64,000 nt of DNA from Actinacidiphila acidipaludis (GTDB taxonomy: Bacteria; Actinomycetota; Actinomycetes; Streptomycetales; Streptomycetaceae). The notes under the pieces are model-generated. The model made no database searches, was not told the DNA's origin, and saw nothing but the letters and a program-made list of their open reading frames with translations. Below are positions 46,397 to 48,857 of this stretch, piece after piece (position 1 is the stretch's first letter; each line of letters begins with the position of its first letter). Where the stretch lies: positions 1 to 64,000 of the forward strand of contig NZ_JAINZZ010000006.1 in assembly GCF_019890725.1 (NCBI RefSeq), written 5' to 3'. Position numbers and translations under genes: made by a program.

Positions 46397-46818
46397 TGAC
46401 ACTCCCGGTGGTGTGGTGCGTGAGGTTCTCTCAGCGTACCCGGTGCCAAAATCTACGCGCGTTGATATCGCCGCGGGAGACTCCGGTCCGGGATCGGGTC
46501 CGGATCACGTTTATGTATCGGCTGACGAAATGCCTGGGGAAACCCCGGCGGAAAACATAGGGTCCCCGTGCGACAGGCAGACACCTGATGCTTGCGGCAG
46601 GGCTTCTGCGGGAATTATCAGGAACGTCGGGTATCCCCGTCCCCGCCTTTTCGTGACAACACACATGTGACTCATGTGACGTCAGCACAAATGAAAACTT
46701 GTCGACACAACCGGTTGGCCCGCCGCAACCGGGCGGACCGGCTCCGGCACCCCGCCGTGACCGCCCGTCCGAGGCGGCCCCCGGGCGAGCCGATGGCCCG
46801 AGAAAGGACCGATCCCCC
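46397..46818. promoter_or_regulatory. purS / lsr2-like divergent promoter region
   Basis: A 422-base divergent region. Near 46650-46690 it is unusually AT-rich and repetitive: ACATGTGAC (46663-46671) is followed directly by TCATGTGAC (46672-46680), then TGACGTCA, a perfect palindrome (46677-46684). CACATGTG at 46662-46669 is a second perfect palindrome. These could be overlapping regulator sites controlling either gene. I cannot assign -10/-35 boxes. Confidence 0.4.
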
Positions 46819-47136
46819 ATGGCGCAACGCGTACTGGTCACCCTCGCCGACGACCTGGACGGCGGCGAAGCCGCGGAAACCATCGCATTCGGCGTCGACG
46901 GACAGTGGTACGAGATCGACCTCTCGACCAAGAACGCGGACAAACTGCGCACCGATCTCGCGCCTTACGTGGAGGCCGGCCGCAGGCGAACCCTTTCCGG
47001 TCGCGCCTACAAGCGCACTCCCATCGCCCCGACGCCCGCCACCGTGCGCGCCTGGGCCCAGTCCAACGGCTTCGAGGTCCCGGCCCGCGGCCGGATCCCC
47101 AAGAAGGTCTACGAGGCGTTCAACAAGGCGGGCTGA
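46819..47136 (+). CDS. Lsr2-family nucleoid-associated protein
   Basis: A 105-residue Lsr2 homologue. The N-terminal dimerisation domain (MAQRVLVTLADDLDGG, then TIAFGVDGQWYEIDLSTKNADKLR) is joined to the C-terminal AT-hook-like DNA-binding domain: VRAWAQSNGFEVPARGRIPKKVYEAF, where the RGR motif enters the minor groove. ATG 46819 has AGAAAGGA upstream. Lsr2 proteins silence AT-rich foreign DNA and many biosynthetic clusters in Streptomyces. Its position beside purS suggests the second paralogue (LsrL-type), from memory of S. coelicolor order. Confidence 0.92.
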   Translation: MAQRVLVTLADDLDGGEAAETIAFGVDGQWYEIDLSTKNADKLRTDLAPYVEAGRRRTLSGRAYKRTPIAPTPATVRAWAQSNGFEVPARGRIPKKVYEAFNKAG

Positions 47137-47302
47137 CCCGCCGGTTGGCCGGCCGGTCGATCACCTGGCGACGGGCGGCGGGGCGCGCGGCACGTGCGCG
47201 ACCCGGCCGCCCAGGCCGATTGGACAGCCACCCCCACCCGTCCGCTAATGTGGTGTCCACGCCGAGGACGGGGGCCGAAAAGCCCAGGTCAGCGGAGTAC
47301 AT

Positions 47303-47374
47303 GCGGGTGTAGCTCAGTAGTAGAGCGCCCCCCTTCCAGGGGGGAGGCGCAGTGTGCAATTCCTGTCGCCCGCT
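47303..47374 (+). tRNA. tRNA-Gly (TCC) with an atypical T arm
   Basis: Acceptor GCGGGTG/CGCCCGC (one G-T pair), D-stem GCTC/GAGC and anticodon stem CCCCC/GGGGG with loop CTTCCAG (anticodon TCC) are sound. The T arm is not: where GTTCRANNC is expected the sequence is GTGCAATTC, and the stem pairs poorly in standard register (CAGTG against CCTGT); a shifted register gives about four pairs and an enlarged loop. CCA is not encoded. It is the first of three Gly tRNA genes in a row. Confidence 0.88.
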
Positions 47375-47404: not shown

Positions 47405-47480
47405 GCGGACGTGGCTCAGTTGGTAGAGCATCACCTTGCCAAGGTGAGGGTCGCGAGTTCGAATCTCGTCGTCCGCTCCA
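47405..47480 (+). tRNA. tRNA-Gly (GCC) copy 1
   Basis: A canonical cloverleaf: acceptor GCGGACG/CGTCCGC, anticodon loop TTGCCAA (GCC), T-arm GCGAG-TTCGAAT-CTCGT and encoded CCA. Identical to copy 2 at 47641-47716. A terminator hairpin follows after five bases. Confidence 0.98.
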
Positions 47481-47640: not shown

Positions 47641-47716
47641 GCGGACGTGGCTCAGTTGGTAGAGCATCACCTTGCCAAGGTGAGGGTCGCGAGTTCGAAT
47701 CTCGTCGTCCGCTCCA
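47641..47716 (+). tRNA. tRNA-Gly (GCC) copy 2
   Basis: Identical in all 76 bases to copy 1, including the encoded CCA. TACAGT at 47622-47627 is a candidate -10, so it probably has its own promoter. It is followed by a near-copy of the same terminator, in which one base pair is changed on both arms. Confidence 0.98.
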
Positions 47717-47792: not shown

Positions 47793-48695
47793 CTACTGCC
47801 AGCTGGTGCCCGTCAGCAGCTCGTACGCCTCCACGTAGCGGGACCGGGCGCGGTCCACCACGTCCGCCGGCAGGCGCGGCGGCGGCTGCTCGCTGTGGCG
47901 GTCCCAGCCCGAGGCGCCGGAGGTCAGCCAGTCGCGGATGATCTGCTTGTCGAACGACGGCTGGGACCGGCCCGGCTGCCACACGTCGGACGGCCAGAAG
48001 CGCGAGGAGTCAGGCGTGAGCACCTCGTCGGCGATGACGAGGGTGCCGTCGTCGTCGTACCCGAACTCGAACTTGGTGTCGGCGAGGATGATGCCCCGCT
48101 CGCGTGCCATGTCCCGGCCGCGCGAGTAGACCGCCAGGGTGGCCTGACGGAGCTGGGTGGCGGTCTCGGCGCCGACCTGACGCGCGACCTCCTCGTACGA
48201 GACGTTCTCGTCGTGCTCGCCCACCGCGGCCTTGGTCGCGGGGGTGAAGATCGCGGCGGGCAGCTCGGACCCGTCGACCAGGCCCTCGGGGAGCGCGAGC
48301 CCGCAGACCGTCTGGTGCTCCTGGTACTCCAGGAGGCCCGAACCGGTGAGGTAGCCTCGGGCCACGCACTCGACCGGGACCATCCGCAGCGGGCGGCACA
48401 CCATGGTGCGGCCCGCCCAGTCGGCGGGGGCGCCCTCGGGCACCTCGGTGGAGATCACGTGGTTGGGGACCAGGTCGGCGAGGCGCTCGAACCACCACAG
48501 GGACATCTGGGTCAGGATCCGGCCCTTGTCCGGGATCTCGGTCGGCAGCACCCAGTCGAAGGCCGAGGTGCGGTCGCTGGCGACCATCACCAGCTCCCCG
48601 GCCGCGTTCTGGTACAGCTCGCGTACCTTCCCGGTGTGCAGGTGGACAAGCCCCGGCACCTGGACGGGCTCGGGCTTGTCGACGAATCCGGACAT
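47793..48695 (-). CDS. purC: SAICAR synthetase (phosphoribosylaminoimidazole-succinocarboxamide synthase)
   Basis: A 300-residue PurC that joins CAIR and aspartate with ATP, purine step 8. Blocks seen: LHTGKVRELYQN, VASDRTSAFDWVLPTEIPDKGRIL, the ECVARGYLTGSGL site and ILADTKFEFGYDDDG. ATG 48695 has GGGAGG seven bases upstream; the longer frame lacks a ribosome site. It is convergent with the tRNA-Gly genes. Confidence 0.97.
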   Translation of the reverse strand: MSGFVDKPEPVQVPGLVHLHTGKVRELYQNAAGELVMVASDRTSAFDWVLPTEIPDKGRILTQMSLWWFERLADLVPNHVISTEVPEGAPADWAGRTMVCRPLRMVPVECVARGYLTGSGLLEYQEHQTVCGLALPEGLVDGSELPAAIFTPATKAAVGEHDENVSYEEVARQVGAETATQLRQATLAVYSRGRDMARERGIILADTKFEFGYDDDGTLVIADEVLTPDSSRFWPSDVWQPGRSQPSFDKQIIRDWLTSGASGWDRHSEQPPPRLPADVVDRARSRYVEAYELLTGTSWQ

Positions 48696-48857
48696 GGGCG
48701 GTCCTCCCCAATCGGTGGCTCGGTCCCGATTCTCGCGCACCCGCGACCGGGCGGCGCGCACGGGATGCGGCCGGCGCCGCGCGAGGACCCCGCGGACGGC
48801 CCGCCCGGACGGAACCGATGTCGCCCGGCGACCGGCGGGACGCCGCCGGAACGGGCC

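Follow-up and report, generated by a model that had tools for sequence, protein, structure and literature searches.

A deviant tRNA-Gly(UCC) kept across most of the Streptomycetaceae may serve glycine transfer outside the ribosome

The window, a stretch of 64,000 nucleotides from Actinacidiphila acidipaludis (contig NZ_JAINZZ010000006.1), carries a 72-nt gene for a deviant tRNA-Gly(UCC) at 47303 to 47374 on the forward strand. The gene was matched as a cloverleaf by the Rfam model RF00005 with 51.5 bits (gathering threshold of 29; E value of 1.1e-9) and by our own covariance model with 102 bits, and its assignment is supported by conservation and covariation. ARAGORN gave no report of the window copy at 47303 to 47374 and called a tRNA-Gly(TCC) on several of its orthologues. 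Two normal tRNA-Gly(GCC) genes lie 3' of the deviant gene on the same strand, the first at 47405 to 47477, with a GTTC arm and G51-C63, and the second at 47641 to 47713. The group is flanked by a gene for an Lsr2-like protein (46699 to 47136, forward strand; taken from the list of open reading frames, with the true start probably later) and by purC, encoding SAICAR synthase (47793 to 48761, reverse strand), which served as the flank marker for synteny and for the tree. Both protein names were assigned by reading the sequences.

A probable promoter, TTGGAC ... TAATGT, was read from the sequence at 47220 to 47251 on the forward strand and starts 83 nt upstream of the tRNA. Other orthologues showed the promoter-like pair TTGGACA ... 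TAGAGT or TAGTGT, and one strict form, TTG[GA]AC-N17-21-TANNNT, was found upstream of 30 of 177 genes. A generic promoter scan found no promoter upstream of the deviant tRNA gene. Just upstream of the tRNA, at 47262 to 47295 on the forward strand, folding gave a leader hairpin interrupted by internal loops and closed by a GAAA-type cap, and three example leaders gave z scores of -2.8, -4.2, and -5.4. This hairpin, placed between the promoter-like pair and the tRNA, often reads GGCC-GAAA-GGCC with small internal loops, and a similar hairpin was formed by many, not all, of the folded leaders from other genera. The window gene encodes no CCA, and CCA directly follows position 73 in 13 of the 177 genes.

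The T loop of the window gene reads T-G-C-A-A-T-T after G53, giving G53-U54-G55-C56, and the anticodon is TCC. Thus, the replacement of GTTC by GTGC, on which the original prediction was built, was read correctly. The weak T stem that it described was also confirmed. In the RF00005 alignment, the T-stem pairs are G49.U65, C50-G64, A51-U63, G52-C62, and G53-C61, and the weakness of the stem arises from this pair set together with one unpaired U between positions 52 and 53. The same prediction had passed over A18 in the D loop, which reads AGTAGTA with G19 kept, compared with AATGGTA in the normal tRNA-Gly(UCC) of the same genome. Further features of the gene are a C32-G38 pair and U73.

The normal tRNA-Gly(UCC) gene of the genome lies at G000:C101:27608-27678. 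It has the anticodon and U73 in common with the deviant gene, and the acceptor stems are nearly identical, but it differs in having GTTC, G18 G19, G51-C63, C32/A38, an encoded CCA, and no extra U. The genome also contains a CCC gene, another copy of the GCC gene, and an odd TCC gene, the third with that anticodon. In 23 genomes, all 105 normal tRNA-Gly genes had G-C or C-G at 51-63, GTTC, and GG at 18-19; this tally used a full-length pattern, which genes with A3-U70 escape, and was counted by eye from 114 rows, nine of which were deviant. In a set of 25 distinct normal genes, the T arms agreed with it. Among the tRNA-Gly genes counted, A51-U63 occurred only in the deviant isoacceptor. Counted by eye, 22 of the 23 genomes had a match to a normal UCC tRNA; in the remaining one, G038, the pattern found none. 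A second, normal TCC tRNA, the presence of which had been left to be checked, is therefore found beside the deviant one, and the reading of the deviant gene as the only GGA/GGG decoder was rejected for the window genome and for 22 of 23 genomes. The odd third gene, at G000:C116:170744-170814 on the reverse strand, has a five-base D loop without GG. A search of 51 genomes gave genes of this type in four, including the window genome, with three copies in genome G010, and a comparison of three stretches for a shared neighbourhood matched only overlapping open reading frames at the gene itself.

The distribution of the deviant tRNA was taken from a covariance model because a DNA query with a g2 sequence did not recover every orthologue, that of genome G001 being among those missed. 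The model was built from 30 orthologues and run on 200 Streptomycetaceae genomes (with the stricter filters that apply to sets of more than 40 genomes), and carriers were counted from the resulting table. Scores were two-peaked: orthologues reached at least 89.8 bits, and the highest score of any other match listed was 72.8 bits. The deviant tRNA was found in 132 of the 200 genomes. In the window genus (g1, Actinacidiphila), 34 of 35 genomes carry it by both the model and a DNA query, the exception (G014) being a 71% complete assembly, and the gene is identical over 72 nt in eight of the 35, including the window genome. Carriers made up 63 of 63 g22 (Streptomyces) genomes, 14 of 14 g3 (Streptacidiphilus) genomes, and 20 of 20 sampled members of g2, g17, g18, g19, g20, g21, g23, g25, g26, g28, and g30 together. 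Among these genera, g26 is Streptantibioticus, and for g2 and g18 our guess is Yinghuangia and Embleya. By the same model, the deviant tRNA was absent from 63 of 63 g27 genomes and from 3 of 3 g24 genomes. The genus g27 is probably Kitasatospora, an assignment supported in part by its position next to Streptacidiphilus in the PurC tree (97/86). In g29, one of two genomes carries the tRNA. The noncarrier, G084, gave no PurC match, and its assembly may therefore lack the region; at G084:C23:106900-109000, one GCC gene is clustered with three further model matches of 49.8 to 54.5 bits, in a place that differs from the GCC locus.

Of 394 genomes from the class, a strict pattern for the GTGC tRNA-Gly(UCC) picked out 40, all from Streptomycetaceae; none of the 354 genomes of other families and orders matched. 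A DNA query of 15 genomes from other families of the same order gave one match, which was a normal UCC gene. Conservation of the arm, which the original prediction proposed to compare across actinomycetes, thus holds for most of the Streptomycetaceae and was not seen with the strict pattern in the other families scanned. A pattern scan of named genomes, some of which overlap the set of 200, matched at least 118 records, all labelled Streptomycetaceae except two among the matches listed, 'Actinobacteria bacterium OK074' and Streptosporangium nondiastaticum. The latter record (NZ_PXWG01000042.1) carries the deviant tRNA in three tandem copies, and over 3.3 kb its locus matches that of a Streptomyces at 92% identity; it is probably a mislabelled strain.

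We examined 95 genes from 89 carrier genomes, comprising 44 distinct sequences; one 71-nt gene was left out of the column counts, giving 94 genes. The extraction pattern fixed parts of the D arm and U33-UCC, and G10, G19, C35, and C36 were therefore required. No orthologue locus failed the pattern, and the five loci in which it found nothing lie around short partial hits. Pairwise identity among 34 genes of the window genus averaged 96% over the gene itself, compared with 70% over the preceding 100 nt and 41% over the 30 nt that follow. Compensating pair changes were seen in the acceptor, D, and anticodon stems. In an alignment of 29 distinct sequences, both sides changed in 9 of the 24 pairs tested, a number reached by none of 500 shuffles, and a control with a sliding partner gave at most three pairs; the structure used in this test was drawn from the same sequences. 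One of five covariation measures, that of further pair types, fell below the shuffles (12 versus a mean of 16.0). Because the T stem is nearly invariant, its covariation says little. A51-U63 was present in 94 of 94 full-length deviant genes, and position 49-65 was G49.U65 in 80 and A49-U65 in 14. Positions 32 and 38 covary as Watson-Crick pairs, C-G in 55 of 94 genes and U-A in 39, while A37 was kept in all 94, as were U33 and the anticodon UCC, both of which were fixed by the pattern.

Positions 18 and 55 changed together. A18/G55 was found in 88 of 95 genes and G18/U55 in seven, from g2 and g18, with no mixtures; correspondingly, GTGC occurred in 88 genes and GTTC in seven. Although the pattern allowed U55, all of the at least 123 genes from at least 118 named records among the matches listed had A18/G55 and GTGC. 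The switch between the two states may have been a single event. In one gene, G067:C68:38105-38176, the extra U lies one pair lower (CATGG compared with CAGTG), and the odd base therefore persists even though its place has moved, as if the bulge itself, rather than its place, were under selection. Tandem copies were also observed, with three in genome G175 and four in Streptomyces sp. I05A-00742, the highest number seen among the matches listed.

The order deviant tRNA, GCC gene, and purC was found in sampled g1, g2, g18, and g21 genomes, which suggests that this is the ancestral arrangement; some genera lack the purC neighbourhood. Reading by eye placed the 3' end of the Lsr2-like gene before the GCC pair in eight noncarrier genomes, five from g27 and three from g24. 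These eight stretches held no remnant of the deviant tRNA at the GCC locus; the promoter-like stretch and two GCC genes remain, and the matches of the covariance model at these loci were the GCC genes. In the PurC tree, g2 and g18 together split from the rest (100/100), and g27 joins the carrier G036 (97/86). The tree was midpoint rooted, three outgroup rows having been dropped because the motif used did not pick out PurC in them, and 14 of its 24 inner branches, including the place of g24, are open. If the root is right, the simplest order of events would be a bulged A51-U63 form, then the A18/G55 switch, and then losses in g27 and g24.

Next, we compared the gene with published determinants of charging and delivery. 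Bacterial glycyl-tRNA synthetase (GlyRS) is reported to read U73, G1-C72, C2-G71, C35, and C36, and the Thermus enzyme also reads C50-G64, G10, and U16 (PMC9976931). All of these were present in 94 of 94 deviant genes (G10, C35, and C36 being required by the pattern), except U16, which was present in 91. In Staphylococcus aureus, the escape from EF-Tu is described as the change of G49-U65 and G51-C63 to A49-U65 and A51-U63 and of G18 G19 to UU or CU (PMC4052509), and one nonproteinogenic tRNA-Gly of this species is reported to be well charged, poorly recognised by EF-Tu, and used in the wall (PMC8007984). From the intact charging signals, the weakened EF-Tu side, and the remodelled elbow, found together in this isoacceptor alone, we infer normal charging and poor delivery to the ribosome.

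As for a user of the glycine, FemX is reported to add the single bridge glycine in Streptomyces coelicolor, with VanK doing so in the presence of vancomycin (PMC4790382). The window genome encodes two FemAB proteins, one of which adjoins an open reading frame read as rpsF. A search of 45 other genomes found FemAB proteins, with predicted glycine transfer, in 44: 25 of 26 Streptomycetaceae carriers of the deviant tRNA, 14 of 14 Streptomycetaceae noncarriers, and 5 of 5 genomes of the same order. Several carriers have just one FemAB protein, and the carrier G078 (96% complete, 410 contigs) gave no FemAB match. The presence of FemAB was rejected as a phylogenetic correlate of the deviant tRNA since it does not discriminate carriers from noncarriers. 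FemX can therefore work without the deviant tRNA, and the link to the wall is not tight. Some other families of the class also have glycine bridges.

Taken together, we hold with moderate confidence that the deviant gene yields a Gly-tRNA that is charged normally, is poorly captured by EF-Tu, and is reserved for nonribosomal transfer, with FemX the likeliest user. In this scheme, GlyRS would charge the tRNA, and the T-stem and elbow changes would alter the surface and shape read by EF-Tu, so that the weak A51-U63, the unpaired T-stem U, and A18/G55 in place of G18/psi55 would lead to poor capture. The charged tRNA would stay free for nonribosomal glycine transfer, probably by FemX, which would place the single glycine bridge onto peptidoglycan precursors, and decoding would be left to the ordinary UCC, CCC, and GCC tRNAs. 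U73, reported to act against bacterial D-aminoacyl-tRNA deacylase (PMC9976931), would through its invariance help an EF-Tu-free pool to survive that enzyme. Charging, weak EF-Tu binding, and use by FemX are here all predicted from the genomes. Several observations count against this reading: the window gene keeps G49.U65, a strong EF-Tu pair, and G19; FemAB proteins occur in all 14 noncarriers searched and were not matched in the carrier G078; and none of the 354 genomes outside the family matched the strict pattern.

A tentative alternative is a nontranslating Gly-tRNA that would serve another user, either a different Gly-tRNA-dependent transferase or the regulation of glycine or purine supply by the tRNA in its uncharged or charged form. 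The distribution does not follow FemX, since g27, g24, and one g29 genome lack the deviant tRNA and keep FemAB, and the tRNA adjoins purC in some lineages. However, that neighbourhood is not shared by all genera, and several carriers have a single FemAB protein. Natural-product clusters are sporadic in distribution, whereas the tRNA is found in every sampled Streptomyces genome. Other users of Gly-tRNA are known in Orf11, for BD-12 synthesis in Streptomyces luteocolor, and in DhpK, for dehydrophos synthesis, as reported in PMC12945691.

It is unlikely that the gene is an ordinary GGA/GGG decoder tolerating an odd elbow, with the elbow and T stem having drifted together and being held by structure alone. 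The invariant A37, the U33 and UCC that the extraction pattern required, and the G49.U65 of most genes would fit a decoder, but a normal UCC tRNA accompanies the deviant one in nearly all genomes counted, A51-U63 is confined to this isoacceptor among the tRNA-Gly genes counted, and the 32-38 Watson-Crick pair stands against C32/A38 in the normal UCC tRNA of the genome. Moreover, the traceless absence at the locus in the eight g27 and g24 genomes indicates that decoding does not depend on the tRNA in these genomes. A pseudogene or decaying copy, to which the low Rfam score and the ARAGORN miss in its own genome might point, is very improbable given the family-wide conservation with compensating changes, the tandem amplification, and the far higher identity within the gene than in its flanks. 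Random decay, raised with the original prediction, and sequencing error were rejected on the same conservation and compensating changes and on the identical copies across the genus.

The reading of a glycine tRNA withheld from translation recalls the staphylococcal cell-wall tRNA-Gly(UCC), which also has a GTGC T loop. The likeness to it, as originally proposed, is borne out in part. Both are extra UCC isoacceptors beside normal ones, both have D- and T-arm changes and A51-U63, and Fem-type proteins are found in the host genomes; the GlyRS positions are kept in the streptomycete gene, and efficient charging is reported in Staphylococcus (PMC8007984). In contrast, S. aureus is described as having UU or CU at 18-19 and A49-U65 (PMC4052509), whereas the streptomycete gene has A18 with G19 kept and mostly retains G49.U65. 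The streptomycete gene also adjoins a tRNA-Gly(GCC) and has an extra T-stem U and a 32-38 pair. The latter two features are not known from staphylococci. The comparison was made with published descriptions of the staphylococcal tRNA. Because two described staphylococcal features, A49-U65 and UU or CU at 18-19, were not found, we do not file the gene as a member of that system, and it looks like a parallel solution; since staphylococci belong to another phylum, its origin was probably independent. The tRNA-Other (pseudo-tRNA) of Bacillus cereus is likewise an odd tRNA-like gene with a putative extratranslational role, and its deletion is reported to thin the wall, but it is described as having a Trp anticodon, being poorly charged, and lying within a longer iron-regulated RNA, with no glycine link described (PMC3399842). 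Among the matches listed, the titles and opening abstract text of open-licence PMC papers held no description of the deviant tRNA in streptomycetes.

Altogether, there is about an even chance that streptomycetes evolved, independently of staphylococci, a ribosome-bypassing tRNA-Gly that was kept across most of the family, in which the elbow switched as a unit from G18/U55 to A18/G55 atop an older, weakened, and bulged T stem, and which separates wall glycine from protein glycine. According to PMC4052509, in which S. aureus is the worked case, it is in most cases somewhat unclear how charged tRNAs come to be used for building the wall. If the reading is true, the deviant tRNA would add another case, apparently of independent origin, in streptomycetes, which are genetically tractable, with Kitasatospora as a natural knockout and g2 and g18 as an earlier stage. 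It would also bear on the question, posed in PMC4880308, of how a Gly-tRNA that EF-Tu binds poorly is spared by D-aminoacyl-tRNA deacylase. The losses and the possible halfway form across genera would allow the deciding tRNA positions to be tested directly.
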